Shown in pieces: positions 908 to 19,725 of a stretch of 20,182 nucleotides of DNA. The stretch comes from a virus, in the IMG/VR virus record IMGVR_UViG_3300017719_000303, positions 1 to 20,182 of that record. One strand, given 5' to 3'. A program made the translations under genes and the position numbers. The notes beneath the pieces were generated by a model, which had not been told where the DNA came from, did no database searches, and worked only from the letters and a program-made list of their open reading frames with translations. Positions within the stretch are counted from its first letter, which is position 1. Every line of letters begins with the position of its first letter.

Positions 908-1336
908 ATGACGTTAGAAGAAATACAGACAATGGCAGATAAAGACTTGAAGATCAATGATGTTGAACTTGATTTAGAATCTTTAAAGACGCCACAATTA
1001 CACAACAAATATTCAAAGTACCATTCAAAATATAAAAATCTTTTAAAGGTTGCTGAACAAGATTTAGCAAGAATTGTAAGAGAGAAGTGGGAATACTACA
1101 CAGGTAAAGCAGACCCTAGTGTATACCAAGAAAAACCTTTTAATCTAAAAGTATTAAGACAAGACGTTGACAAATACGTTAAGTCAGATAGTGATGTTAA
1201 TAAACTAGAACAAAAGGTAACATATATAGAAACAACGGTAGATTATTTAGAGAAGACTCTAAAAATTATATCAAATAGAACATTTACTATTAAGAATGCT
1301 ATAGATTGGAAAAAGTTTACTTCAGGAGTTATTTAA
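908..1336 (+). CDS. uvsY: UvsY recombination mediator
   Basis: A 142-residue protein, close to the 137 residues of T4 UvsY. It shares the N-terminal helical segment (M-LEEIQ), the YSKYHSKYKN...VREKWEYYTGKADP region (T4: YSKWLNKH...RLDYYSGRGD) and the C-terminal 'IISNRTFTIKNAIDWKKF' (T4: 'IKSRGFAIKHIQDMRAF'). UvsY loads the UvsX recombinase onto single-stranded DNA covered by gp32. The ribosome site AAGG (894-897) lies upstream of the ATG. The stop codon overlaps the next ATG by one base (TAATG at 1334-1338). It begins the recombination module and stands with uvsW, gp47 and gp46 as in other T4-like marine phages. Confidence 0.88.
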   Translation: MTLEEIQTMADKDLKINDVELDLESLKTPQLHNKYSKYHSKYKNLLKVAEQDLARIVREKWEYYTGKADPSVYQEKPFNLKVLRQDVDKYVKSDSDVNKLEQKVTYIETTVDYLEKTLKIISNRTFTIKNAIDWKKFTSGVI

Positions 1337-2229
1337 TGCAATTAAGAAATTCATACATGTTTTACAAGAGTGCTATCAAGCCAGATGTATGTAAGAAAAT
1401 TATATCACATGGTTTATCAAAGATGGTTGTGGATGAAAGTCATGGTGTATCAAAAGTAGCTGCTACCTTTGATGGTAAAGAAAAAGGTGGCATAGATAGT
1501 CAAGGCAGGAAGATGTCTGATACTATGATAACAGGAGGCGCAAACAGAGAAACGCTTGCTAAAAAAGGCATTGACGTTGAAAGAGCCTATGTAAGAGATA
1601 GTGATATTTCATGGTTGAATGACAAATGGTTATACGATTTATTTCATCCATATATACATCACGCAAACGCACAAGCAGGTTGGAACTGGAAGTGGGATTT
1701 TTCTGAGTCATTTCAGTTTACAGTATATCACGGTAGAAAAGAAAATGGTGGTTTCTATGGTTGGCATGCTGATGGATCATCTGATTTTAGAAGTGCATAT
1801 AAAGCAGCTGTAAAAGTAAAAGATGGTAAGGTACCACAATTTAAACCACCTAAAAGAGATGATAAAGGTTTTGTGATTATGAGACCTGATGGTAAACCTG
1901 AACCTGACATGAGAGGAGCTGATATACCTCTTAAAAGAGATAAGAAATCTTTAGCACCTGGATTTACTGATAATATACATATGTGGGATAAAGTAAGAAA
2001 AATAAGTATGACTGTTAATCTAACTAATCCTAATAATTATGCAGGTGGTAATCTAAAGTTTGATTTAGGCGCTCACGCAGGTAAGAAAAGATTTAAGGTA
2101 TGTGAAGAAATAAGACCTCAAGGATCAGTTATCATATTCCCTAGTTTTACATATCATTGTGTCACACCTTGTACAAGAGGAACTAGATACTCATTAGTAT
2201 TGTGGAGTTTAGGAAAACCATGGCAATAA
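1336..2229 (+). CDS. 2OG-Fe(II) oxygenase, prolyl-hydroxylase/PKHD type
   Basis: A 297-residue protein using the ATG at 1336, preceded by AGGAG at 1324-1328; an in-frame upstream ATG at 1306 lies inside uvsY and has no such site. The metal triad is His144-x-Asp146 (WHADGS) and His274 (FTYHCVTP), and Arg284, ten residues after the second His, is the expected 2-oxoglutarate anchor. The core strands 'ISMTVNLTNPNNYAGGNLKF' and 'GSVIIFPSFTYH' are typical of PKHD/P4H enzymes. It would hydroxylate an unknown substrate (protein, nucleobase or small molecule) using O2 and 2-oxoglutarate. A Lys/Pro-rich insert (about 160-215) lies between the HxD and the core. First of five consecutive genes of this fold. 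Confidence 0.85.
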   Translation: MQLRNSYMFYKSAIKPDVCKKIISHGLSKMVVDESHGVSKVAATFDGKEKGGIDSQGRKMSDTMITGGANRETLAKKGIDVERAYVRDSDISWLNDKWLYDLFHPYIHHANAQAGWNWKWDFSESFQFTVYHGRKENGGFYGWHADGSSDFRSAYKAAVKVKDGKVPQFKPPKRDDKGFVIMRPDGKPEPDMRGADIPLKRDKKSLAPGFTDNIHMWDKVRKISMTVNLTNPNNYAGGNLKFDLGAHAGKKRFKVCEEIRPQGSVIIFPSFTYHCVTPCTRGTRYSLVLWSLGKPWQ

Positions 2230-2975
2230 AAGACACAGAAAAATTTTACAAAGATAATAAGTATTGTGTTATAAAAGAATTTATACCACCTATACTTGCA
2301 GATTATCTATATGGTTATGCTCTTATGAGAGCTAATAGAGCAAAGACTATGGTCAATAGTAAATGGCCTGGTTATAGAGCAGAGCTTGATGGCACATATA
2401 AAGATCAACAAGTGCCTAATACTTACTCATGTTATGCTGATCCAGCAATGGAAACATTATTACAATATGGTTTACAAGGCATGAGAAATATTACAGGTTT
2501 AAATCTTAAACCTACATATTCATATTGGCGTTTATACAAGAACGGTGATGATTTAAAAAGACACAAAGATAGACCAAGTTGTGAAGTGTCAACTACATTA
2601 TGTTTAGGATATGACAATAATAATTTAAAAGGTAGAAAACAAGATTGGGAAAAATATGACTGGCCTATGTGGGTAGATAAGACAGGAGGCTTTGGTAATA
2701 GAGGTGTGCCTATTCATATGAAACCTGGTGATATGATAGTTTATAGAGGTTGTGAAATAGAACATTGGAGAGAACCTTTTTTAGGTGATAATCACGCTCA
2801 AGTATTCCTTCATTATAACAACGTAGATGGACCATATGGTGAAAACTGTGTCTATGATGGCAGACCTCATTTAGGATTACCTGCTGAATTTAAGATACCA
2901 GAAAAAATACAGGCAATGCAAAAGGCAGATAAAAACTTACATGAGCAGCGATTATCAAACAAAGAAAAAACATAA
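2220..2975 (+). CDS. 2OG-Fe(II) oxygenase superfamily protein
   Basis: A 251-residue protein starting at ATG 2220, ten bases inside the previous gene; a GTG at 2202 is an alternative. It carries His115-x-Asp117 in RHKDRPSCEVSTTLCLGYD, then GDMIVYRGCEIEHWREPF with the distal His182. The residue ten after that His is His192 rather than the usual Arg or Lys (sequence GDNHAQVFLHYN), so 2-oxoglutarate binding may differ or use Arg184. The N-terminal part (YCVIKEFIPPILADYLYGYA) is the usual helical cap of this fold. The HKDRPSCEVS and EHWRE signatures differ clearly from the neighbouring oxygenases, so this is a separate subfamily and not a recent duplication. Confidence 0.75.
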   Translation: MAIKDTEKFYKDNKYCVIKEFIPPILADYLYGYALMRANRAKTMVNSKWPGYRAELDGTYKDQQVPNTYSCYADPAMETLLQYGLQGMRNITGLNLKPTYSYWRLYKNGDDLKRHKDRPSCEVSTTLCLGYDNNNLKGRKQDWEKYDWPMWVDKTGGFGNRGVPIHMKPGDMIVYRGCEIEHWREPFLGDNHAQVFLHYNNVDGPYGENCVYDGRPHLGLPAEFKIPEKIQAMQKADKNLHEQRLSNKEKT

Positions 2976-3480
2976 AGATTTCACGTTGGTACAAGATAAT
3001 TTCTTGTCAAATAATGAGTGTGATGAGTTAGTAGAAAAATATAAAAATCTTACATCTGAATTTGATAATAATAAGTATGGTTATTCATCATACTTTACGA
3101 ACAATATAACATTTTCAGATCAATTAAAAACATTAATAGATACATACACAAAAACATTTAAGGAAAGTGCTTTGACACCTTATCCTTGGGTATTAAAAGA
3201 ACTTAGGTTTAAATGGTTTAAACCAGGCAACTGGTTCAAAGATTTTCATTGTGAGCATGGATATGATAATAACAAAAGAGTATTAAACTTTATGATATAT
3301 CTATCAGATCATAATTGTGGTACAGAGTTTTATACAGGTGAAGTAATTAAATCTATAAAAGGTAGGGTTGCTATGTTCCCAGCCTACTTTACACATCTAC
3401 ATAGAGGACAACAATGTCCTGATAACCATGATAGATATATTATGGGTGGCTATTTTAATTATGAAGATAATCAAAGATAA
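2941..3480 (+). CDS. 2OG-Fe(II) oxygenase-like protein with HxE motif
   Basis: A 179-residue protein whose start overlaps the previous gene by 35 bases; no other in-frame ATG exists until far downstream. The core has His103-x-Glu105 (FHCEHGYDNN), then VLNFMIYLSDHNCGTEFYTGE, and IKGRVAMFPAYFTHLHRGQ, with His152/His154 and the anchor Arg165 in DRYIMGGYF. The usual Asp of HxD is Glu here. The THLHRG element is typical of small phage and bacterial hydroxylases of this fold. The N-terminal domain (FTLVQDNFLSNNECDELVEKY) is the common helical start. Substrate unknown. It overlaps the next gene by 20 bases, so the block is probably translated together. Confidence 0.72.
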   Translation: MSSDYQTKKKHKDFTLVQDNFLSNNECDELVEKYKNLTSEFDNNKYGYSSYFTNNITFSDQLKTLIDTYTKTFKESALTPYPWVLKELRFKWFKPGNWFKDFHCEHGYDNNKRVLNFMIYLSDHNCGTEFYTGEVIKSIKGRVAMFPAYFTHLHRGQQCPDNHDRYIMGGYFNYEDNQR

Positions 3481-3976
3481 AGATTTTTTAAAAGATAAAC
3501 ATAAGGACTTTATATCAGAGTTTATTCTAAAGGCTGATTTTCCTTATTTCATACAACCACATTCTACATTTGATGACGACTACACAATGATGGAACATAT
3601 ATGTTTACGAAGATATGATAAAGATTGGAATACAGGCAACGTAGATATGTATAAGGATATATTAAATACGTTTTGCAATAAACATGACATACGATATAAG
3701 GAAATATTAAGGTGCTCTGTAAATCTAACATTTAACGTGGGTATAAAAAAATCATTAGAACATACAGATCATAAAGAACCACACAAACAATTATTAATAT
3801 ATTGTAATGATGTAAAGGACAAAAGATCATACACAGTAATATTAGATGAAAATAGAAAACCTATAGATAAAATAAAACCTATACAATATAGTGCAGTAAG
3901 TTTTGGTGACAATCATCACTATCATTATTATCCAAGAATAGGTCATAGAGTTGTATTGGTATATACATTTAAATGA
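3461..3976 (+). CDS. Small 2OG-Fe(II) oxygenase-like protein, paralogue A
   Basis: A 171-residue protein taken from the ATG at 3461 (MKIIKDKDFL). A longer reading from 3368 would lie inside the previous gene, and its N-terminus has no counterpart in the paralogue. His101-x-Asp103 (EHTDHKEPHKQLLIY) and the HHYH cluster (His152, 153, 155), with Arg163 ten residues after His153, give the metal and 2-oxoglutarate pattern. It is about the same length as the next gene and follows it along the whole chain (DKDFL, DFPxFI, LRR, SxNLTxN, SYTVI, YxFP/YYPxxGxR, VYTFK/VFTFK). The substrate is unknown. Confidence 0.7.
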   Translation: MKIIKDKDFLKDKHKDFISEFILKADFPYFIQPHSTFDDDYTMMEHICLRRYDKDWNTGNVDMYKDILNTFCNKHDIRYKEILRCSVNLTFNVGIKKSLEHTDHKEPHKQLLIYCNDVKDKRSYTVILDENRKPIDKIKPIQYSAVSFGDNHHYHYYPRIGHRVVLVYTFK

Positions 3977-4494
3977 TAATAGATAAAGATTTTTTAAGTA
4001 AGGAACAGATAGCGTATATTGAAAATCATATTTTTAGTAATGACTTTCCTTGGTTTATTGAGAACAGGAGTGTTGTCGGCAGAAAGAATAAACCTTTTCT
4101 AAAACATACGGTATTAAGAAGACCTGAGGAAAGAGAAGAAGGAGAATATTTTAGGTCATATATGGGCAAATTCTGTTTAGGTATATTAGATAATTTTGCA
4201 AAAAATAATACTATGACTATAATAGATGTGCTTAGAATAAGTATCAATCTAACATATAACAATGGTTATGAAAAATGTAATGTACACCAAGACCATGAAT
4301 ATAATCATTCACAACTGCTTGTATATATAAATGAGTGTGATAAAAAATCATATACAGTAATTAAGAATGGTAAGAAGGAAATAAAAGTAAGACCAGAGAA
4401 GTATAAAGTTGTTTGTTTTGACAATCAACCTCACTATCTATATTTTCCTAAAAAAGGCCTTAGAGCTGTTATGGTATTTACATTTAAAATATGA
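3973..4494 (+). CDS. Small 2OG-Fe(II) oxygenase-like protein, paralogue B
   Basis: A 173-residue protein that overlaps the previous stop by four bases (ATGA). His105-x-Asp107 (VHQDHEYNHSQLLVYI), His154 (QPHYLYFPKKG) and Arg164, exactly ten residues later, complete the triad and anchor. It is the tandem paralogue of the gene before it, sharing motif order and length but with clear divergence, so the duplication is old. The reading frame is intact and both copies keep the catalytic residues, suggesting two distinct functions. Its stop overlaps the start of uvsW by four bases. Confidence 0.7.
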   Translation: MIIDKDFLSKEQIAYIENHIFSNDFPWFIENRSVVGRKNKPFLKHTVLRRPEEREEGEYFRSYMGKFCLGILDNFAKNNTMTIIDVLRISINLTYNNGYEKCNVHQDHEYNHSQLLVYINECDKKSYTVIKNGKKEIKVRPEKYKVVCFDNQPHYLYFPKKGLRAVMVFTFKI

Positions 4495-5945
4495 TTAAAG
4501 TAAAAAAATTAAATACGGTCTATTTACAGATAGAGGCAGAAGCAGATGTTAGACGTGAATTAACAGATTATTTTTCTTTTGAGGTACCTGGTTATAAGTT
4601 TACACCACAATTTAGAAACAGAGTTTGGGATGGTAAGATACGATTATATTCATATGCCACAGGTCAATTATATGTTGGATTGTATCCCTATCTAAAAGAC
4701 TGGTGTAATAAGAAAAACATAGAAATAGAAGAAAACAACGAGATTCATACAATTCAATCGCACACAGCCGCCGATATAGACGAATTAGTCAAGTCTTATG
4801 AACTCTCTATCACACCGAGAGATTATCAAATTGACGCATTTAAATATGCCTTAGATTACGAGAGAGGATTAATATTATCGCCTACTGCGTCTGGTAAATC
4901 ACTTATCGCATATCTATTGGTAAGACACTATCTAAACGTGATAGATAACAACATACTCATAATAGTACCAACAACATCATTAGTAGAACAACTATACAAA
5001 GACTTTAAAGACTATGGATTTGATGTAGAAAATAATGTAAGTAGAAACTACCATGGTTACGAAATAGAAGAAGGCAAACGAATAGTTATCTCTACTTGGC
5101 AATCTCTATATAAACTCCCAAAAACTTTTTTCGCTGACTTCGGCGCTGTTATAGGTGATGAAGCTCATTTATTTAAAGCTGTATCTCTGACGAAGATAAT
5201 GACGAAACTGACCGATTGTAAATATCGTATTGGTATGACTGGTACCTTAGATGGTACTAAAACCCATAAGTTAGTATTAGAAGGTCTATTTGGTAGAGTA
5301 AACAAAGTTGTATCTACTAGAGAACTAATAGATAAAAAACAACTTGCAGATTTAAAAATAATATGCCTAGTATTAAAACATACAGAGGCAGAAGCAAAAG
5401 CGATTTACAAAGAAAAGTATCATAAAGAGTTAGAATATCTAGCTCAGAGTGAGAAAAGAAATAAGTATATAAGAAATCTAGCAACAGCCTTGAATGGTAA
5501 TACTTTAATACTATTTCAACTTGTAGAAAAACATGGTAAGGAGTTATATGAACTTATACGAAACAAAGCAGGAGACCGAGAAGTCTTCTTTGTCTATGGA
5601 GGAGTTGACACCCAACAAAGAGAACAAGTTAGAGCAATCACAGAAAAAAGCGATGACGCTATTATCGTGGCTTCCTATGGGACTTTCTCTACGGGGATTA
5701 ACATACGGAACTTGCATAACATTATTTTTGCTAGTCCTTCTAAATCTAGGATAAGAAATCTACAATCAATAGGTAGAGGTTTAAGGATAGGTGATAGTAA
5801 AGATACAGCGACATTATATGACATATCAGATGACCTGACATATAAAGAAAAGAAGAACTTTACGCTGACCCACTTTCAGGAAAGAATAAATATTTACAAC
5901 GAGGAGGGTTTCACATATGAGATCCATAGTGTGGAACTAAAGTAA
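4491..5945 (+). CDS. uvsW: UvsW superfamily 2 helicase
   Basis: A 484-residue protein (T4 UvsW is about 500). The N-terminal domain (1-100) has the UvsW-specific FTPQFRNRVWDGKIRLY. The helicase core follows: Q-motif-like ITPRDYQIDA, Walker A PTASGKS (131-137), motif Ia 'LIIVPTTSLVEQ', DEAH-type box G-D-E-A-H (222-226), motif III MTGTL and motif VI QSIGRGLRIG (425-434). UvsW unwinds branched DNA and R-loops. In T4 it drives the change from origin-dependent to recombination-dependent replication and assists branch migration in repair. It is separated from uvsY here by five oxygenase genes. Confidence 0.92.
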   Translation: MIKVKKLNTVYLQIEAEADVRRELTDYFSFEVPGYKFTPQFRNRVWDGKIRLYSYATGQLYVGLYPYLKDWCNKKNIEIEENNEIHTIQSHTAADIDELVKSYELSITPRDYQIDAFKYALDYERGLILSPTASGKSLIAYLLVRHYLNVIDNNILIIVPTTSLVEQLYKDFKDYGFDVENNVSRNYHGYEIEEGKRIVISTWQSLYKLPKTFFADFGAVIGDEAHLFKAVSLTKIMTKLTDCKYRIGMTGTLDGTKTHKLVLEGLFGRVNKVVSTRELIDKKQLADLKIICLVLKHTEAEAKAIYKEKYHKELEYLAQSEKRNKYIRNLATALNGNTLILFQLVEKHGKELYELIRNKAGDREVFFVYGGVDTQQREQVRAITEKSDDAIIVASYGTFSTGINIRNLHNIIFASPSKSRIRNLQSIGRGLRIGDSKDTATLYDISDDLTYKEKKNFTLTHFQERINIYNEEGFTYEIHSVELK

Positions 5946-5946
5946 T

Positions 5947-6372
5947 ATGGTTAAAATAATTCGACTAATATCTGGCGAAGAAATCTGTTGTGTAATTCCT
6001 AAAGAACAAATTAAAGATAATAAAACGCTTATAAGATTATCTGAGCCAATGTTAATTAAATACGTGCCTAAAATAACCGAGATGGGGATATCAGATTATA
6101 TCGCATTGGTTAAATGGGTTGGGTTTACTAATGATAAAATTATAACAATACCAAAAGATAAGATTATGACTATCGCAAATGCCACAGAGCCTTTTACTAG
6201 AAGATATCATCATTTAGTAGATACAATAAACAAACAAAATCAAAAACTTCCTGCCTTTATAGAAAGAGATATGTCAGATGAAGACTATGATAATTATGAT
6301 AATAAAACTCAAAAAGAGAACCTTGATGATTTAAAAGAATACTTTGATATGCCTAGCAAAAAGATACACTAG
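5947..6372 (+). CDS. Conserved phage protein with LSm/Hfq-like N-terminus
   Basis: A 141-residue protein. The start, MVKIIRLISGEEICCVIP, followed by LIRLSEPMLI and a short strand pattern to about residue 75, resembles the Sm1/Sm2 strands of LSm-like phage proteins (lysine or valine, then 'LxSGEE' and a second strand). Residues 90-141 are charged and probably unstructured (DEDYDNYDNKTQKE). An RNA-binding role is the common guess for such folds, but nothing here proves it. It begins one base after the uvsW stop, so it belongs to that unit. Confidence 0.5.
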   Translation: MVKIIRLISGEEICCVIPKEQIKDNKTLIRLSEPMLIKYVPKITEMGISDYIALVKWVGFTNDKIITIPKDKIMTIANATEPFTRRYHHLVDTINKQNQKLPAFIERDMSDEDYDNYDNKTQKENLDDLKEYFDMPSKKIH

Positions 6373-6376
6373 CTAA

Positions 6377-6390
6377 GGTCCCTGGTGACC
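6377..6390 (+). other. Short inverted repeat in the 71-base gap
   Basis: GGTC (6377-6380) and GACC (6387-6390) can pair around a six-base loop in the gap 6373-6443. There is no T-run after it and no convincing -35/-10 pair, so it is only a weak structural candidate. The rest of the gap shows nothing recognisable. Confidence 0.2.
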
Positions 6391-6443
6391 AACCCACATA
6401 GGGTATTATATCAGAAAAACCTAACCTGTCAAGCGACCGTGAA

Positions 6444-7049
6444 ATGAATTTACATATACCATTAAAGAACGTACCTATAATATCAATAAAAGACTTTCAT
6501 AAGTTTACAAAATATCAAAAAGATAAGATAATAAAAAATTTATTAGGTATAAAAGACCTTTGGGATAACCAACCTAATTCAAATAAATCAACTACTAATT
6601 TTGAGATATTATATAATAAAGATGACAAAAAGTATAATAATCTTATTAATGACCTATATGATAAATTTTATAGAGTAGCACAACAGTTATTTAATTTTAC
6701 AGTATCAAAGAAAAGTAAAAGAATATGTTGGGCATGTATTACTAATAAAGAATACTATAACTTTGTGCCACATAATCATATAAAGTCATCTACTATTAAT
6801 GCTGTATATTACTTAAATATACCTAGAATAAACAAGAAATTATCAGGTCCTGTAAAGTTTAAAGTAGATAATAAATGGATATACTATCAACCAGATAATA
6901 ACGAGTTAATATTATTCCCAAATTATCTTATACATGACGCAACTAAACACAACTCAAAAGAATGGAGAGTAAGTATAAACATGGAAATACTATGTAGAGA
7001 AGATAAGGATTATATTGTGCATGTCCTTGACAAAAACAACAAAATGTAG
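6444..7049 (+). CDS. 2OG-Fe(II) oxygenase-like protein, HxH subfamily
   Basis: A 201-residue protein. The core reads VPHNHIKSSTINAVYYLNIP, with His110-Asn-His112 in place of HxD. After it come GPVKF, 'NNELILFPNYLIHDATKH' with His164, and Arg175 in EWRVSINMEI. The arrangement H-x-H, SG/NAVYYL, LFP-x-YLIH, RVSIN is that of the putative 2OG-Fe(II) oxygenase family I know as PF13759. It stands upstream of gp55 and shares its pattern with the genes at 8667 and 12628. The last part carries the promoter for gp55. Start ATG 6444 has only a weak ribosome site. Confidence 0.65.
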   Translation: MNLHIPLKNVPIISIKDFHKFTKYQKDKIIKNLLGIKDLWDNQPNSNKSTTNFEILYNKDDKKYNNLINDLYDKFYRVAQQLFNFTVSKKSKRICWACITNKEYYNFVPHNHIKSSTINAVYYLNIPRINKKLSGPVKFKVDNKWIYYQPDNNELILFPNYLIHDATKHNSKEWRVSINMEILCREDKDYIVHVLDKNNKM

Positions 7050-7055
7050 TATTAT
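7027..7055 (+). promoter_or_regulatory. Strong sigma70-like promoter at gp55
   Basis: A perfect TTGACA (7027-7032), 17-base spacer and TATTAT (7050-7055) lie in the end of the previous gene. Transcription would start near 7061-7063, at or next to the gp55 ATG (7062), giving a leaderless or near-leaderless message. No ribosome-binding sequence precedes that ATG, which fits. Confidence 0.5.
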
Positions 7056-7061
7056 ATAATT

Positions 7062-7610
7062 ATGACTAGAACAAAGAAAAAATCAGTACATTATGTAAGC
7101 AATAAAGAGTTTTTACAGGCAATGATTGAATACAAGGATCGTTGTGAAAAGGCAGATAAAAGAAAAAGAAAAAGACCTCCTGTGACTAACTACATTGGTG
7201 AATGTTTTTTAAAGATAGCAAATCATTTATCATACAGACCTAACTTTATAAATTACACATTTAGAGATGACATGATAAGTGATGGTATAGAAAACTGCTT
7301 ACAATATTTAAATAATTTTAACCCACAAAAATCAAATAACCCATTTGCTTATTTTACGCAGATAATATATTATGCGTTTATTAGAAGAATACAGAAAGAG
7401 AAAAAACAAGCAAATATAAAATATAAGATGATTGAACAGGCAGGTATTGATGAGTTTGATACACTACCTGGAGATACTAATACAGAATATAAGAATCAAT
7501 TTTTAGAATTTTTAAGAAAGAATAGACCAACAACCGAAGAACCAAAAAAGAGTGAAATAAAAGTTAAGAAAAGAAAAAGAAGAAATTACACAAGCGTTTT
7601 AGATACATAA
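7062..7610 (+). CDS. 55: gp55 late sigma factor
   Basis: A 182-residue protein (T4 gp55 is 185). The centre has NYIGECFLKIANHLSYRPNF, then 'FRDDMISDGIENCLQYLNNF' and NPFAYFTQIIYYAFIRRIQKEKKQ, the region 2-like helix that binds core RNA polymerase and the -10 element. The T4 protein carries the same FRDEMI..GIE.C..Y..NF and NPFAYFTQI elements. It directs host RNA polymerase to TATAAATA late promoters. The C-terminus is Lys/Arg rich. Start ATG 7062 has no ribosome site. The stop and the next ATG share one base (TAATG at 7608-7612). Confidence 0.93.
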   Translation: MTRTKKKSVHYVSNKEFLQAMIEYKDRCEKADKRKRKRPPVTNYIGECFLKIANHLSYRPNFINYTFRDDMISDGIENCLQYLNNFNPQKSNNPFAYFTQIIYYAFIRRIQKEKKQANIKYKMIEQAGIDEFDTLPGDTNTEYKNQFLEFLRKNRPTTEEPKKSEIKVKKRKRRNYTSVLDT

Positions 7611-8674
7611 TGAAAATTGCAATATTAAATGATACACACTTCGGTGTTCGTAATGATAGCGAAGCATTTAGAAAATATCAATTAAGATTTTATAACGAAA
7701 TCTTTTTTCCTTACCTAGAAAAAAACAATATTAAAACACTAATACATTTAGGCGATGTTGTTGATAGAAGAAAATTTATTAACTTTCAAACTGCCTCTAT
7801 TTACAGACAACAATTCTGGGACAGATTATATAAAGAAAAGATTGATACACATATAATCATAGGTAACCATGATACCTATTTTAAAAATACAAATGAGGTA
7901 AATGCTATAGAAAATTTATATACAAGTTTTGATGGTGTTAATGAACCATTTATATACACTAAACCTAAAGTCGTAGATTTTGATGGCACTTCTATATTAT
8001 TAATGCCTTGGATATGTGATGATACTAAAGAAGAATCTATACAGATGTTGAATACAGCAAAGGCAGATTTATGTTTTGGTCATTTAGAGATTAAAGGTAT
8101 AGAAATGCAGAATGGTGTAATCAATGAGTTTGGTAATGATAAGGCAGACTTCAAAAGATTTGATAGAGTAATTTCAGGTCACTTTCACAAACATACAGAT
8201 GATGGTCAGATATTTTATTGTGGTGCTCAATATGAGATGACATGGTCAGATTACCAAGACCCTAAAGGTTTTCATATCTTTGATACAGAAACAAGAGAGA
8301 TTGAAAGAATATGGAATCCTCTAACTATTCATAAAAAAATAATATATGATGACAAGAAAAAAGATTACATAAACTATGATATACAACCTTATCATAATCA
8401 CTTTATAAAATTAATAGTCTTAAATAAGACAGATGATAACCAATTTGACAAATTTGTTGAAAGGTTGTATAATGAGATAACGGTACATGATTTAAATATT
8501 ATAGAAGATTACTCTGATATAAAAGCAAGTGTAAGAGATGACATAGTTGAAATGGGTGAGGATACTGTCACATTCCTAAATAACTATGTAGATCAACTTG
8601 AAACAGATGTAAATAAAACTAAACTAAAAGAGTATTTAAAATCATTTTACATAGAAGCAAACGACAATGCCTAA
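7610..8674 (+). CDS. 47: gp47 recombination nuclease subunit (SbcD/Mre11-like)
   Basis: A 354-residue protein (T4 gp47 is 339). Metallophosphoesterase motifs are complete: D8-x-H10 (NDTHFG), G48-D49-VVD (GDVVDRR), G85-N86-H87-D88 (GNHDTY), FGHLEIKG and G190-H191-F-H193 (GHFHKH). With gp46 it forms the Mre11/Rad50-type complex that resects DNA ends for recombination-dependent replication and breaks down host DNA. It is separated from gp46 by one oxygenase-like gene, with which it overlaps by eight bases. Confidence 0.95.
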   Translation: MKIAILNDTHFGVRNDSEAFRKYQLRFYNEIFFPYLEKNNIKTLIHLGDVVDRRKFINFQTASIYRQQFWDRLYKEKIDTHIIIGNHDTYFKNTNEVNAIENLYTSFDGVNEPFIYTKPKVVDFDGTSILLMPWICDDTKEESIQMLNTAKADLCFGHLEIKGIEMQNGVINEFGNDKADFKRFDRVISGHFHKHTDDGQIFYCGAQYEMTWSDYQDPKGFHIFDTETREIERIWNPLTIHKKIIYDDKKKDYINYDIQPYHNHFIKLIVLNKTDDNQFDKFVERLYNEITVHDLNIIEDYSDIKASVRDDIVEMGEDTVTFLNNYVDQLETDVNKTKLKEYLKSFYIEANDNA

Positions 8675-9275
8675 ACCTAAACCAAGTAAAAAAATTATCA
8701 GACAAGAAAATCTATGGCCTACGCCATATTGGTATACACAACTATGGGATTTTATGAGAAGTGAAACTAGAGTTACCTTCAATGATGATTTTACAGGTTA
8801 TATTCTAAATGAAGAACAAAATAATAAGTCTGTTAGAAAATCAAACAGAGGTGGTTGGCAAAGTCATTCAACAAACGCTACAGATGAAAATTATAAACCA
8901 CTAGTAGATGAGATTATGGAGTTTGTAAAACATTTAAATTTAGATGTTAAAGATATGCAAATAGCACAACTATGGGCAAATGTAAATAGAAAAAATGATT
9001 ATAATATAATACATCAACATGGACAATACAGTCTATCAGGAACTTATTATGTTAAGGTACCTGAAGATTCTGGTCGTATCGTGTTTAGAGATCCAAGACC
9101 TGGTGCAATGGGCAATAATTTTTTAGTGAGTAATTTTGATAAAGGTGAGTTTAAAAAATTAAGTATAATGGAAGGACTACTTGCGATATGGCCTTCGTAC
9201 CTAGATCATCTTGTAGAACCAAGTAATACAGACGAGGAGAGAATATCAATTAGTTTTGATATAATTTGTAGATGA
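8667..9275 (+). CDS. 2OG-Fe(II) oxygenase-like protein (PF13759 type), HxH
   Basis: A 202-residue protein. The N-terminus has the family phrase NLWPTPYWYT. The core has 'NIIHQHGQYSLSGTYYVKVP' with His116-Gln-His118, SGRIVFRDPRPGAM, 'LAIWPSYLDHLVEPS' with His181, and Arg192 in ERISISFD. This is the full pattern of the family, with HxH where other dioxygenases have HxD. It lies between gp47 and gp46 and overlaps both (eight and four bases), so the three are translated together. Its substrate is unknown; co-translation hints at work on DNA ends or on a partner of the nuclease but does not show it. Confidence 0.75.
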   Translation: MPKPKPSKKIIRQENLWPTPYWYTQLWDFMRSETRVTFNDDFTGYILNEEQNNKSVRKSNRGGWQSHSTNATDENYKPLVDEIMEFVKHLNLDVKDMQIAQLWANVNRKNDYNIIHQHGQYSLSGTYYVKVPEDSGRIVFRDPRPGAMGNNFLVSNFDKGEFKKLSIMEGLLAIWPSYLDHLVEPSNTDEERISISFDIICR

Positions 9276-10981
9276 TATATTTTAAGAAGTTAAGATGGAA
9301 GAATTTTTTATCTACTGGTAATCAGTTTATAGAAGTTGACCTGGCAAAGTCACCATCAACATTAATCATAGGTTCTAACGGCTCAGGTAAATCTACTTTA
9401 CTTGACGCATTATGTTTTTCTCTATTTAACAGACCATTTAGAACTATTAAGAAAGAGCAATTAGTAAACACAATCAATAATGCTGATTGTGAGATACAGG
9501 TTGATTTTGAAACAAATGGTAAACAGTATAGAATTATTAGAGGTATCAAACCTAATTTATTTGAGATTTATTGTAATGATGTATTGATAAACCAAGACGC
9601 CTCAAATGTAGATTATCAAAACATGTTAGAACAGAATATTTTAAAATGCAATTATCGTGCTTTCTGTCAAGTAGTAATATTAGGGTCATCATCATACGAG
9701 CCATTTATGCACCTACGAGCAAGATACAGACGAGAGGTTGTAGAGGAAATATTAGACATAAGAGTTTTTAGTCATATGGATTTATTGTTAAGACACAAAC
9801 AAGCTGAACTATCTAAAAATATTGTAGATGTTAGGCATAGATATGATTTGATGTCAGAGAAATATCAATTACAGAAAGACCATTTTGAACACATACAAAA
9901 TAGAGATAACACAGACATAGAAGATCGAAGATCACAACTAAAAGAAAATGATAAAAGTAATTATGAGTACAATCAAAAATTACAATTGTTAAATGAGAAG
10001 ATTATATCAACAAAGGCAGAGATATGGGGCGGTGATAAGTTTACAAGAAAGTCTGCTGACCTTTCTAAACTAGAGGCAAAGATAGAAACTAATTTATCTA
10101 ATCATAAAAAGACTTTAGAATTTTTTAAGAATAATGATACTTGTAATACATGTACACAACCCATAGATAAAGCATTTAAACAAAGTAAAATATCAAGTGA
10201 AGAAAGTAAAATATCAGAGTTAGAAGCAGGCCTGACAAACCTATCAACAGAGATAATCAAAACACAGGATAAGATAACTGAATATAAAGCAGTAGAAAAA
10301 AGATTAAATGATTTAGATATATCTGTTGCAAAGGTTAACACCTCTATTTCAGAAATCAATAGACACTCAAATAGACTTGATATTGAGATACAGAAACTAC
10401 AATCAGAAAAAGAAAACACAGGTAAGGTTGCACATGAATTAGACCAATTGAACGAGGACCTAAAACAAATAAATGTTGACAAAGAAAAAGTTATAGAAGA
10501 AAAAAAATACATTGATATTGCTAGAGAGATATTAAATGATACAGGTGTCAAGGCAAAGATAATTAAAAAGTATCTGCCTATAATGAATAACTTAATTAAT
10601 AAATATCTACAATCTATGGACTTCTTTGTTAACTTTCATTTAGATGAGGAGTTTAACGAAACAATTAAGAGTAGATTTAGAGATACGTTTGTTTATAATA
10701 GTTTTAGTGAAGGTGAAAAATTAAGAATAGACCTTGCATTATTATTTACATGGCGAACAATCGCTAAGATGAAAAATAGTACAAATACAAATTTATTAAT
10801 ACTTGACGAGATATTTGATAGTAGTTTAGATGGTTCAGGTACCGAAGACTTCTTTAAAATATTAAAGTCATTGACAAGTGAAAATACATTTATTATATCT
10901 CACAAAGGCGATATATTATTTGATAAGTTTACTAATATAATAAAATTTGAGAAATATAAAAACTTTACGAGGTTAGCATAA
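9272..10981 (+). CDS. 46: gp46 recombination nuclease ATPase (SbcC/Rad50-like)
   Basis: A 569-residue protein (T4 gp46 is 560). N-terminal Walker A GSNGSGKST (34-42), then 'LCFSLFNRPF', a Q-loop region, a long coiled coil (about 180-430) with the zinc hook C291-x-x-C294 in its middle, and the C-terminal lobe with signature FSEGEKLRIDLALLF (478-492) and Walker B 'LLILDEIFDSSLD' (D512-E513). It is the ATPase and tether of the gp46/gp47 complex. The start overlaps the previous stop (ATGA). The gene ends in TAATG, shared with the deformylase start. Confidence 0.95.
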   Translation: MIYFKKLRWKNFLSTGNQFIEVDLAKSPSTLIIGSNGSGKSTLLDALCFSLFNRPFRTIKKEQLVNTINNADCEIQVDFETNGKQYRIIRGIKPNLFEIYCNDVLINQDASNVDYQNMLEQNILKCNYRAFCQVVILGSSSYEPFMHLRARYRREVVEEILDIRVFSHMDLLLRHKQAELSKNIVDVRHRYDLMSEKYQLQKDHFEHIQNRDNTDIEDRRSQLKENDKSNYEYNQKLQLLNEKIISTKAEIWGGDKFTRKSADLSKLEAKIETNLSNHKKTLEFFKNNDTCNTCTQPIDKAFKQSKISSEESKISELEAGLTNLSTEIIKTQDKITEYKAVEKRLNDLDISVAKVNTSISEINRHSNRLDIEIQKLQSEKENTGKVAHELDQLNEDLKQINVDKEKVIEEKKYIDIAREILNDTGVKAKIIKKYLPIMNNLINKYLQSMDFFVNFHLDEEFNETIKSRFRDTFVYNSFSEGEKLRIDLALLFTWRTIAKMKNSTNTNLLILDEIFDSSLDGSGTEDFFKILKSLTSENTFIISHKGDILFDKFTNIIKFEKYKNFTRLA

Positions 10982-11469
10982 TGATATATAAATTATTACC
11001 ACCAAACGATCCAAGAGTATTATCATCAATAGCAGAATTTGATATTGAAAGATTCAAAGATGAAGAAAAGATAGAACTAAAAGAATTTGTAGATAATATG
11101 TTTGAGACCATGAAACAATATGGTGGTATAGGATTGTCTGCTAATCAAGTAGGTAAACCATATAGAATGTTTGTTATGGGTGATCACCTAAATATACAAA
11201 AGAATAAGAAGTGGGTTTGTATTAATCCTAAAATTACAAATGTCACTAAAGAGTTGATAAGATATAAAGAAGGTTGTCTAACTTTTCCTTTCTTATTTTT
11301 AGATATAGAAAGACCACAAGATATATCGGTTGAGTACCTAGATGAAAATTTAGAAAAAAAAGAAGAACATATGTCAGGTATTGTGGCAAGATGTTTTCAA
11401 CATGAATTTGACCATATGCAAGGCATAGTATTTACAGAGCATGTCAGTAAATTAAAACTAGAGATGTAA
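10981..11469 (+). CDS. def: Peptide deformylase
   Basis: A 162-residue protein of full family length. The three motifs are present: GGIGLSANQVG (48-58, catalytic Gln56), EGCLTFP (97-103, metal Cys99) and QHEFDHMQG (metal His141 and His145, catalytic Glu142). It removes the formyl group from nascent chains. Deformylases are common in marine phages, usually explained as maintaining or speeding maturation of rapidly made proteins. The EGCLTFP form (T in place of the more usual S) is typical of phage and organelle-like versions. A GAGG site precedes the ATG. The start shares one base with the gp46 stop. Confidence 0.93.
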   Translation: MIYKLLPPNDPRVLSSIAEFDIERFKDEEKIELKEFVDNMFETMKQYGGIGLSANQVGKPYRMFVMGDHLNIQKNKKWVCINPKITNVTKELIRYKEGCLTFPFLFLDIERPQDISVEYLDENLEKKEEHMSGIVARCFQHEFDHMQGIVFTEHVSKLKLEM

Positions 11470-11510
11470 ATAAAAAAAAGAAATAAAGAAATTAAAAAGG
11501 CACAAAAAAG

Positions 11511-12137
11511 ATGGCAATCCTCACAGAATTAGATTTACCACAATATAAACAGAGTTTAAGAAAGTGTGTAGCGTTTTTAAATAACATTGAATATTCACCT
11601 GTAAAAACAAAATACAACGCAAAGGGTGATTGGGATGCTATATCAATTAGAGGATATAGTGATGATGTAGGCAACATTTTAAAACCTGGTGTTTTAAAAA
11701 GTAATGTAGAACCATCTCATTTAAGATGGACACATCTATATGAAGAACCTGATTGTTTACCTATAAAAGAAATACTATCACATATACCTGCTGAGTTTGA
11801 AAGAGTAAGAGTTATGAGATTAAAAGCAGGTACAACTATAAAAAAACATACAGACAAAATAGATAAAGAAATTAAGAATAAGAATATTATTAGAATACAC
11901 ATACCATTAAAGACAAGTTTAAATGTTCACTTCTACCTATGGGAAGGTAAGGAACAACATCACTATAATTTAGAAACAGGAAAATATTATTATACAGACG
12001 TTTCAAAACCACATGCTGTTCACAATAAAGCAGATTTTGATAGATTACATCTTGTGGTTGATTGTTATAATAACCCTAAAATAAAAAGTTTATTAGATGA
12101 TGATAGATTAAATACAATGGTAGGCGTAGATATATGA
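11511..12137 (+). CDS. Aspartyl/asparaginyl beta-hydroxylase-like oxygenase
   Basis: A 208-residue protein. The core reads 'RVMRLKAGTTIKKHTDKID', with His113-x-Asp115, then IIRIHIPLKTSLNVHFYLWEG and YTDVSKPHAVHNKADFDRLHLVVD, where His168 and Arg178 stand ten residues apart. The order matches the Asp/Asn beta-hydroxylase branch of the 2-oxoglutarate oxygenases (family PF05118-like). The N-terminal 90 residues contain 'GDWDAISIRGYSDD', seen in related phage proteins. It follows a 41-base A-rich stretch (11470-11510) with AAGG before the ATG. Substrate unknown; this branch usually acts on proteins. Confidence 0.75.
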   Translation: MAILTELDLPQYKQSLRKCVAFLNNIEYSPVKTKYNAKGDWDAISIRGYSDDVGNILKPGVLKSNVEPSHLRWTHLYEEPDCLPIKEILSHIPAEFERVRVMRLKAGTTIKKHTDKIDKEIKNKNIIRIHIPLKTSLNVHFYLWEGKEQHHYNLETGKYYYTDVSKPHAVHNKADFDRLHLVVDCYNNPKIKSLLDDDRLNTMVGVDI

Positions 12138-12247
12138 GTTTTTTAGTATGGCACATGCTTGCGATATTGACAATTATGATAATATCGTTTATAATAGGTT
12201 ATAGTGTAGGTGAAAAAAATGTTAATAGCAAAAGAAGAAGATTTTGA
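12134..12247 (+). CDS. 37-residue membrane peptide
   Basis: The ATG at 12134 overlaps the previous stop (ATGA). It encodes Met-Ser-Phe-Leu-Val-Trp, then a continuous hydrophobic stretch (about residues 3-25: LVWHMLAILTIMIISFIIGY) and a basic tail ending KRRRF. This is one transmembrane helix with positive charges at the C-terminal end, so the C-terminus is likely cytoplasmic. The last 29 bases overlap the next gene. The stop-start overlap and clean helix suggest a real gene, but its length is too small for a firm call; no function is recognised. Confidence 0.45.
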   Translation: MSFLVWHMLAILTIMIISFIIGYSVGEKNVNSKRRRF

Positions 12248-12644
12248 ACAAGTAAAAACCATATTTTATAAACATAAGAAATGGTTTCCCCATGTAAGAA
12301 CTGATTACATGAGGCGTATGATTGCAAAACAACAATTAATTTTAGAAGAAGGTATATTGATTACCTTTCATCACGCTAAAAGAAAACAAACTATTGGCGA
12401 TGTTCATGTGAAAAAAGGCGATACTGTATTACATCAAATTGCAAATGATGACCCAGGTAGTGGTAATGCAAAAGTAATATTACAGAATTTTTTTGAGTGG
12501 TGTCCTAGAGATGTATTCTTATCAGTAAGATCAGACAACACAAAGGCATGTAGTTTCTATGAACAGATAGGAATGAAACTAGTAGGAGAAACTAGTTGGG
12601 CAAGAGGTACTTTACCAGGCAAGGTTTATGCAAAAAGAAAGTAA
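12219..12644 (+). CDS. GNAT-family acetyltransferase
   Basis: A 141-residue protein with the start taken as ATG 12219 (AGGTG at 12208-12212 upstream); GTG 12210 in frame is an alternative. The pattern is GNAT-like: a short N-terminal helix (DFEQVKTIFYKHKKWF), strands (ILEEGILITF), then GSGNAKVILQNFFEW (the acetyl-CoA binding region, with a degenerate Q/RxxGxG loop 'DDPGSGNAK'), and the terminal V-RSDNTKACSFYEQIGMKLVGE motif, which is very typical of the family (N..A..FYE..GF). It probably acetylates an amine on an unknown target. Confidence 0.7.
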   Translation: MLIAKEEDFEQVKTIFYKHKKWFPHVRTDYMRRMIAKQQLILEEGILITFHHAKRKQTIGDVHVKKGDTVLHQIANDDPGSGNAKVILQNFFEWCPRDVFLSVRSDNTKACSFYEQIGMKLVGETSWARGTLPGKVYAKRK

Positions 12645-13182
12645 TATATCATTTCACTCATTAAATAGTTTTTATATGATAACGACATTAGAAAAATTTA
12701 GTTTCTTTAATAGAAAGTTATTAGAACACTTTGATAAAATGCCTAACCTTAGTTTTGCTAATGTGACAAAAACTGATTGGTCTATGAGTAAAGAAGAGTC
12801 AGATAAGAAAACATACATCAAACCTTTTTTTAAAAAGATCACTCCTTACTATAATAAGATTGCAAAACAATTAGGTAAAAAAAGGTGGGGATGGAGAGCA
12901 GGCAATATCTGGTTTCAACAATATAATGAAAAGAGTGATCATCACTGGCACAATCACTGGTATGCTAATTGGACTAATGTATATTATGTTGAACTGCCTG
13001 ATAGATCATTAACAACACAATTATATGATACATTGAGAAAAAAAATTATAAATGTAAAATTAAGAGAGGGACAGTTATTAACTTTTCCCGCTCATGTAAT
13101 GCACAGGTCACCTGTAAATAAATCTAAAGAAAGAAAAACTGTTATATCGTTTAATACTAATATAAACATGGAGACAAAATGA
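12628..13182 (+). CDS. 2OG-Fe(II) oxygenase-like protein, HxH subfamily
   Basis: A 184-residue protein from ATG 12628 (AAGG three bases upstream, 17-base overlap); ATG 12676 (MITTLEKFSFF) is an equally plausible start giving 168 residues. With 12628 numbering the core is HHWHNHWYANWTNVYYVELP (His108-Asn-His110), then 'GQLLTFPAHVMHRSPVNKS' with His156/His159, and Arg169 in ERKTVISFN. The W-H-x-H, NVYYV, TFP...H, R pattern matches the genes at 6444 and 8667. The gene ends four bases into the methyltransferase gene (ATGA overlap). Confidence 0.65.
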   Translation: MQKESNISFHSLNSFYMITTLEKFSFFNRKLLEHFDKMPNLSFANVTKTDWSMSKEESDKKTYIKPFFKKITPYYNKIAKQLGKKRWGWRAGNIWFQQYNEKSDHHWHNHWYANWTNVYYVELPDRSLTTQLYDTLRKKIINVKLREGQLLTFPAHVMHRSPVNKSKERKTVISFNTNINMETK

Positions 13183-19178: not shown

Positions 19179-19486
19179 TGGGTATATACGATTACGATAA
19201 AGACACAAAACCTAAAATGTCTAAAGAAGAATCAGATAAGATGATGAAGAAGTTTTTAGACAAAGGTGGTAAGGTACAAAAATTAAAACCTGGTTCTGCT
19301 GCTGTGTTAGGTAGTATGGATAAAAGTGGTAAACCTGCCTATTCAAAAGAAGAAATTGAAAAAGGTATTACAGGTAAGACACCTAGACCAGATTATAAGA
19401 ATTACAAACCTAATACATACCATGATTATGATTTAGGTGGTGATAAGATACCAGTTTATGAACCAAAAGGAAAGGACAACCAGTGA
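19178..19486 (+). CDS. Small hypothetical phage protein
   Basis: A 102-residue hydrophilic protein with the phrase FLDKGGKVQKLKPG (26-39), a short 'FLxKGGKVxxxxPG' element seen in many small phage proteins of unknown function. The remainder is rich in Lys, Gly, Pro and Tyr (DYKNYKPNTYHDYDLGG). AAGGAGG (19164-19170) precedes ATG 19178, whose first base is shared with the previous stop. Unknown function; it may be a leader for the bS21 gene, to which it is coupled through a four-base overlap. Confidence 0.55.
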   Translation: MGIYDYDKDTKPKMSKEESDKMMKKFLDKGGKVQKLKPGSAAVLGSMDKSGKPAYSKEEIEKGITGKTPRPDYKNYKPNTYHDYDLGGDKIPVYEPKGKDNQ

Positions 19487-19725
19487 GTATAACAGTTGAA
19501 GTAAGAGGTGGCAACCTAGAGAAGGCAATGCGTGTACTAAAGAAAAAAGTACAAAAGGCAGGCATAGTAAAAGAGGCAAGAGAGCGTCAATACTTTATGA
19601 AACCATCAGAAAAAAAACGAGAAGTTATGAAAACTCGTGCTATAACTCTAAAGAAAGCCCAAAAAAAGAATGACGAAATGTTGGGTTATCAATGGATTAA
19701 GGGTGTTAAAATTAAAAAAATTTAA
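19483..19725 (+). CDS. rpsU: Ribosomal protein bS21
   Basis: An 80-residue protein. The sequence VEVRGGNLEKAMRVLKKKVQ, then KAGIVKEARERQYFMKPSEK, KREVMK and a basic helix to the end follows bS21 closely (V-V..n-E.A.RR.K...eK.Gi..e.r.r..yekPt..Rkr). bS21 sits near the 3' end of 16S rRNA, where it helps messages pair with the ribosome. The start is GTG (19483), whose frame and family fit point here; AAAGGA (19471-19476) is upstream. Phage-encoded bS21 is known from marine phages and could favour phage messages. The gene ends the operon. Confidence 0.88.
   Translation: MSITVEVRGGNLEKAMRVLKKKVQKAGIVKEARERQYFMKPSEKKREVMKTRAITLKKAQKKNDEMLGYQWIKGVKIKKI

Follow-up and report, generated by a model that had tools for sequence, protein, structure and literature searches.

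Nine predicted iron oxygenases, probably exchangeable cassettes, crowd the recombination block of a T4-like, pelagiphage-like fragment and include two phage protein families with questionable names

The virus fragment IMGVR_UViG_3300017719_000303 (20,182 bases; hereafter the window, meaning the whole stretch of DNA analysed) carries nine genes that almost certainly all encode proteins of the double-stranded β-helix iron oxygenase fold, interspersed among the recombination and late-transcription genes of a T4-like phage. The genes, named here by their start positions 1336, 2220, 2941, 3461, 3973, 6444, 8667, 11511 and 12628, are very probably exchangeable cassettes, as judged from their gain, loss and transfer among related loci. 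Taken as a whole, the explanation that we consider probable is that they act as nine stand-alone non-haem Fe(II) oxygenases with separate substrates, perhaps in amino-acid or protein hydroxylation. The array is a real, unusually crowded instance of a known phenomenon, the accumulation of oxygenases in such phages.

The nine open reading frames (ORFs) are intact and encoded on the plus strand, the majority abutting or overlapping an adjacent gene, and they occupy the positions at which a sequence-only reading of the window had placed nine oxygenase-fold genes (1336-13182), with profile searches and structure prediction suggested as checks. Five of them pass the Pfam gathering cut-offs (27 bits for PF13640 and PF13759, 22.6 bits for PF05118), including (i) the PKHD/PiuC-like 1336 (1336..2229; PF13640, 41.8 bits), the start of which overlaps the uvsY stop; (ii) the PF13759-type 6444 (6444..7049; 39.8 bits) and 12628 (12628..13182; 37.4 bits); (iii) 8667 (8667..9275), located between gp47 and gp46, which scores above the cut-offs of both PF13759 (79.1 bits) and TIGR02466 (87.2 bits); and (iv) the PF05118 member 11511 (11511..12137; 45.5 bits), placed between a peptide deformylase and an acetyltransferase gene. 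In addition, 1336 reached 47.7 bits against the NCBIfam PKHD hydroxylases, below the cut-off of those models, and matched PiuC chains at E 0.001. The product of 2941 (2941..3480) falls just short of PF13640 (24.4 bits, 2.6 below the cut-off), matches phrog_61 (2.7e-21) and is recovered as a superfamily member by iterated hidden Markov models (HMMs). The Pfam search gave no convincing match for 2220 (2220..2975; PHROG 2954) or for 3461 (3461..3976) and 3973 (3973..4494), two PHROG 274 members that form a tandem pair with 37% identity.

Structure prediction was run on 2220 and 3973, and AlphaFold2 returned good models for both, with predicted local distance difference test (pLDDT) values of 86.5 and 91.0 and predicted template modelling (pTM) scores of 0.85 and 0.88, respectively. 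The best 50 Foldseek matches of each model in the PDB are exclusively oxygenases of the 2-oxoglutarate (2OG) type. The 2220 model is led by the prolyl-4-hydroxylase (P4H) of Pseudomonas putida (E 1.7e-9) followed by PHD2, and the 3973 model by a Burkholderia 2OG oxygenase, PolD and PHD2, with template modelling (TM) scores of up to 0.76; over both queries the matches score moderately (TM about 0.4-0.8) and share 10-18% identity. When the 2220 and 3973 profiles were searched against PDB sequences, nothing beyond chance matches came up. The assignment of 3461 follows by homology to its tandem partner and by invariant columns. The closest PDB sequence to 11511 is L-proline cis-4-hydroxylase, and 8667, 12628 and 6444 are related to the proteins of solved structure 2rg4 and 3bvc, with which they share the fold family; unlike the window genes, 2rg4 and 3bvc are bacterial, and they are of unknown function.

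The active-site residues follow two arrangements. The HxD/E...H triad is present in six of the nine proteins, including 1336 (HAD..H..R), 2220 (HKD..H), 3461 (HTD..H..R), 3973 (HQD..H..R, at H105, D107, H154 and R164), 11511 (HTD..H..R) and 2941 (HCE..H..R, read by eye from a shallow alignment), whereas 6444 (HNH..H..R), 8667 (HQH..H..R) and 12628 (HNH..H..R/K) display HxH...H instead, an arrangement kept in their relatives. These residues are conserved within the families: H105, D107, H154 and R164 of 3973 are invariant across 13 relatives; H115, D117 and H182 of the 2220 family do not vary across 15 close members or 7 more distant ones, S-PM2 included; the His-x-His pair and distal His of the PF13759-type proteins are kept in 12 members and likewise in 2rg4 and 3bvc; and the 11511 alignment retains HxD..H. 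The Arg or Lys that anchors 2OG was found in eight of nine proteins, the exception being 2220, which carries Gln at the usual Arg position, as do all dereplicated members of its family with that stretch shown. The motif described in the sequence-only reading, an H-x-D/E/H pair with a distal His and usually an Arg, thus stands for the metal ligands, with the qualification that three genes are of the three-His type and that 2220 is devoid of the Arg.

Iterated HMMs unite seven of the nine genes in one superfamily, with 2220 and 11511 remaining separate. When the seven families that can be aligned with one another are placed in a tree, the window genes fall in different, mostly deep clades, and 3461/3973 is the sole tandem pair, which agrees with the earlier proposal of several subfamilies and of accumulation beyond duplication. 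Recent duplication as the chief source of the array was rejected, a single tandem pair being present.

The two families without a Pfam match bear names that disagree with these results, and the members sampled here are predicted oxygenases, by fold and conserved residues. PHROG 2954, annotated as 'ferrochelatase' and displaying HxD..H with Gln, was sampled in the window (2220-2975), Pelagibacter phage Mosig EXVC030M (43207-43977), HTVC023P (44301-44921), Pelagibacter phage HTVC008M (56808-57449) and S-PM2 (194317-194925). The 2220 product and these four phage proteins, named or homologous to 'ferrochelatase', gave zero Pfam matches up to E=5, and no ferrochelatase appears among the PDB sequence matches of 2220 up to E=10 or among its best 50 fold matches. 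PHROG 274, annotated as 'DNA endonuclease V' and also as denV, was sampled in the window (3461-4494), P-SSM2 (138413-138982) and HTVC008M (24214-24702, 26549-27034 and 76476-76958). These proteins gave no credible match to the T4 DenV or EndoV nucleases in Pfam, no nuclease occurs among the PDB sequence matches or the best 50 fold matches of 3973, and the P-SSM2 'denV' passes the PF13640 cut-off. In the literature, 'ferrochelatase' has been taken literally as a haem enzyme, encoded beside a 2OG gene in an HTVC023P-type podovirus (PMC9599517), and ferrochelatases have been counted, via phrog2954, as a category of their own with seasonal enrichment (PMC11561400). The window shares with the HTVC023P-type pair the direct adjacency of a 2220-family gene and a 2OG oxygenase gene, and the two accounts part over the 'ferrochelatase', an oxygenase in the present reading and a haem enzyme in theirs. 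A literature search for a prior correction of these names found none in the library searched, an earlier correction still being possible, and some database records already label homologues as 2OG oxygenases, so that the correction is partly under way.

The behaviour of these genes as cassettes is evident from comparison with the related contig L008, the backbone of which is 87-92% identical to the window and from which three oxygenase stretches are cleanly missing. These comprise (i) a three-gene insertion at 2951..4511 containing the third to fifth oxygenases (2941, 3461 and 3973), where L008 has ~20 bases; (ii) a single-gene insertion at 6444-7025 (6444, the sixth oxygenase), replaced by ~12 bases; and (iii) a single-gene insertion at 12647-13175 (12628, the ninth), replaced by ~110 bases. 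The 6444 family was found solely in the strain of the window and in the lineage of the more diverged contig L110, and 12628 solely in two contigs, both of one strain. Compared with L110, the 2941-3461 stretch of the window is 85.5% identical and its flanks 73-74%; simple Nei–Gojobori (NG86) estimates of synonymous divergence (dS) give 6444 a value of 0.34 and 2941 one of 0.66, whereas the recombination genes reach 1.1-1.5 or saturation. The higher identity and lower dS of these oxygenases relative to their surroundings point to exchange between lineages after their split. For the eight of nine genes that could be measured, the NG86 ratio of nonsynonymous to synonymous divergence (dN/dS) is 0.09-0.39, a pattern that points to purifying selection; 12628 is without a comparator.

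In 47 dereplicated loci, 50 of the 54 ORFs inserted between uvsY and uvsW are oxygenases and 4 are other ORFs, and an 11511-type gene is present in 33/33 deformylase-acetyltransferase gaps. The 2220-family gene is directly adjacent to a 2OG oxygenase gene in 23/25 dereplicated cases, and in 22/25 the oxygenase lies directly upstream, 14 of these being of the 1336 type. The sole matches of the 2220 profile among genome contigs are seven contigs of marine metagenome-assembled genomes (MAGs), of which L188 is a phage, five carry further oxygenases alongside and L190 is without them. L188, assigned to the MAG Porticoccaceae MED754, is 68-81% identical to the window in its tail tube, uvsY, uvsW and gp55 genes, so that a phage contig has here been binned with a bacterium. 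A cellular origin of 2220 was considered and rejected, no host donor being found among the seven.

Oxygenase counts rely on iterated HMMs built from the retrieved related loci, because a genome search on the window's own record recovered only one of the nine genes. With these models, which carry some risk of profile drift, 22 loci, dereplicated at 95% UvsW identity and spanning uvsY to the methyltransferase or peptidase gene, contain 9 (L011, the strain of the window), 7 (L110), 5, 4, 3 and 3 oxygenases, the rest 2 or 1, and genome-wide counts reach 15 in Mosig, 20 in HTVC008M (three of them weak, <30 bits) and 2 in Melnitz. The maximum in any 12 kb is 9 in the window, 7 in HTVC008M and 6 in Mosig, and seven matches fall within ~6.3 kb in the short contigs L166 and L171, so dense arrays are not confined to the window. 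Similarly, the cyanophage S-SCSM1 possesses 24 2OG-Fe(II) oxygenase genes (PMC9602691), and several 2OG oxygenase genes occur in 14/16 cyanophages (PMC3037559). A large genome-wide number is therefore routine in pelagiphage isolates, and nine within the uvsY-methyltransferase block are extreme: the number called striking by the sequence-only reading holds as crowding in this module and does not hold genome-wide, and its own counter-possibility, that all related phages routinely carry as many, is half borne out. The array is not an assembly accident, because contig L011 repeats the identical set of nine genes in the same order at 99.8% identity, other contigs share parts of it and the diverged L110 has seven. 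Compared with known systems, the window resembles the marine T4-like phages S-SCSM1, Mosig and HTVC008M in its many diverse short PF13640/PF13759 oxygenases (PMC9602691), and the tandem arrays of Mosig and HTVC008M also include the 2220 and PHROG 274 families; on the other hand, these two isolates have five or six genes per array, placed between the tail-fibre and neck genes, unlike the nine inside the uvsY-methyltransferase block.

Based on these data, the array may be pictured as cassettes lodged between the genes of a T4-like recombination and late-transcription block that is otherwise constant. Its base would be the near-fixed 11511 and the frequent pair 1336 and 2220, and close relatives would differ by gain or loss of 2941-3461-3973, 6444, 8667 and 12628, one gene or three at a time. 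Most of the nine are probably 2OG-dependent hydroxylases, and they would be co-translated or expressed with the recombination operon, as overlaps of start and stop positions with operon genes (e.g., 3973-3976, 4491-4494 and 9272-9275) suggest. The substrate most likely differs from enzyme to enzyme. One shared pathway, as suggested in the sequence-only reading, was rejected on the grounds that close relatives gain and lose the genes independently, one at a time or as a three-gene cassette.

The chemistry tentatively preferred is the hydroxylation, during infection, of amino acids, either as residues in proteins of the host or the phage or in free form. This preference is drawn by analogy, because the nearest folds are protein-acting prolyl hydroxylases (the P. 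putida enzyme PPHD, which acts on EF-Tu, and human PHD2) and because 11511 is nearest a proline hydroxylase and fixed between a deformylase and an acetyltransferase-like gene. The predicted folds and HxD..H metal sites of 2220 and 3973 resemble P4H and PHD2, from which they differ in sharing 10-18% identity only and, for 2220, in the missing 2OG-binding Arg. Several points weigh against this overall explanation: the closest solved relatives share only 10-17% identity, some fold matches (PolD, EvdO1 and OkaE) act on small molecules, 2220 is without the usual anchor and so may not use 2OG, and the methyltransferase adjoining 12628 keeps a link to DNA modification conceivable. A further proposal, rather unlikely in our judgement, is that 1336 and 2220 form a two-part enzyme, in which a canonical 2OG hydroxylase is joined by an iron-keeping partner that lost the 2OG anchor (Arg to a conserved Gln) and is spread across pelagiphages and cyanophages as 'ferrochelatase', the uvsY-uvsW gap being a dedicated oxygenase exchange site.

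The main rival, possible if doubtful, is that the enzymes act on small molecules, altering host metabolites or depleting 2OG and thereby steering nitrogen and energy metabolism. Depletion of 2OG has been put forward for cyanophages (PMC3037559), the natural-product and amino-acid oxygenases among the fold matches would suit such a role, and so would a Trp-halogenase gene in the gp55-gp47 gap of L110 with similar ORFs in seven other contigs; however, depletion would need no diversity of subfamilies, and the window shows no complete metabolic pathway. Modification or repair of phage DNA bases, also raised in the sequence-only reading, would account for the placement amid uvsY, uvsW, gp46 and gp47, is in line with the DNA-methylase-like gene beside 12628 (PF01555, 20 bits, below cut-off), and echoes a DNA repair role suggested for cyanophage 2OG proteins, as cited in PMC3037559. 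It is nevertheless improbable, and no positive evidence emerged for it: no TET/JBP or AlkB Pfam model is among the matches listed for any of the nine at E up to 1, both predicted folds lie nearest to enzymes of prolyl-hydroxylase type, and the tail-fibre-to-neck location of the Mosig and HTVC008M arrays indicates that such genes are not bound to recombination loci.

Cassette turnover among close relatives is typical of genes for defence or counter-defence that phages exchange and diversify, but PADLOC returns solely its generic '2OG' model for accessory genes and a single chance match to Cas5, and we regard this role as quite improbable. Even less credence is given to the idea that the majority of the genes are inert passengers, to which the patchy presence, with 12628 and 6444 in one or two lineages only, would lend itself; all nine are intact, their metal ligands are invariant within families, and dN/dS is well under 1 wherever a comparator exists.

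Regarding its origin, the window is, by gene similarity, a fragment of a pelagiphage-like, T4-like member of the Kyanoviridae, related to SAR11-infecting phages, and its host would be of SAR11 type. The closest isolate is Mosig (77% DNA identity across the 9% aligning; UvsW 64% identical), followed by Methylophilales phage Melnitz and HTVC008M (56%). With oxygenases in parentheses, the gene order is tail tube, uvsY, (1336, 2220, 2941, 3461, 3973), uvsW, 'mau', (6444), gp55, gp47, (8667), gp46, peptide deformylase, (11511), acetyltransferase-like, (12628), methyltransferase, peptidase-like, cobS-like AAA and bS21. The interleaving with recombination and late genes is borne out by PHROG matches, all on the plus strand: the recombination mediator uvsY (908..1336; phrog_231, 2.8e-50) and the helicase uvsW (4491..5945; phrog_16, 9.7e-111), the left and right edges of the oxygenase-receiving gap; the late sigma factor gp55 (7062..7610; phrog_234, 3.4e-63); and the recombination nuclease subunits gp47 (7610..8674; phrog_100, 6.4e-92) and gp46 (9272..10981; phrog_77, 1.1e-163). 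Promoter and late-promoter scans gave no signal exceeding chance.

At 10981-12644 the deformylase, the PF05118 hydroxylase and a GNAT-like gene form a conserved trio, which with bS21 farther downstream (19483-19725) resembles a grouping for protein synthesis. Close to bS21, a small gene at 19208-19446 has its L110 counterpart in the gp46-deformylase gap (L110:13041-13279) and represents a relocated gene. The uvsW-mau gap of many relatives, L026, L029 and L072 among them, contains a conserved ~155-residue ORF with the methyltransferase-like motif LEIGTGTGKS, from which the window is free. In the gp55-gp47 gap, L008 carries a 1.5-kb ORF (L008:5666-7204) with no counterpart in the window; the flavin-dependent Trp-halogenase-like gene of L110 lies at L110:8049-9593 (PF04820, 344 bits), and similar ORFs occupy the same gap in L007, L008, L020, L022, L025, L083 and L111.

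Oxygenases are abundant among pelagiphage and cyanophage genes, and the literature covered reports no demonstrated function for them. The locus sorts stable from exchangeable genes, narrowing the first candidates to 11511 and the 1336 and 2220 pair. The most useful new point concerns the two wrongly named families in databases and papers: as predicted oxygenases, their renaming would turn the haem link in pelagiphages (PMC9599517) and the seasonal ferrochelatase category (PMC11561400) into statements about oxygenases.

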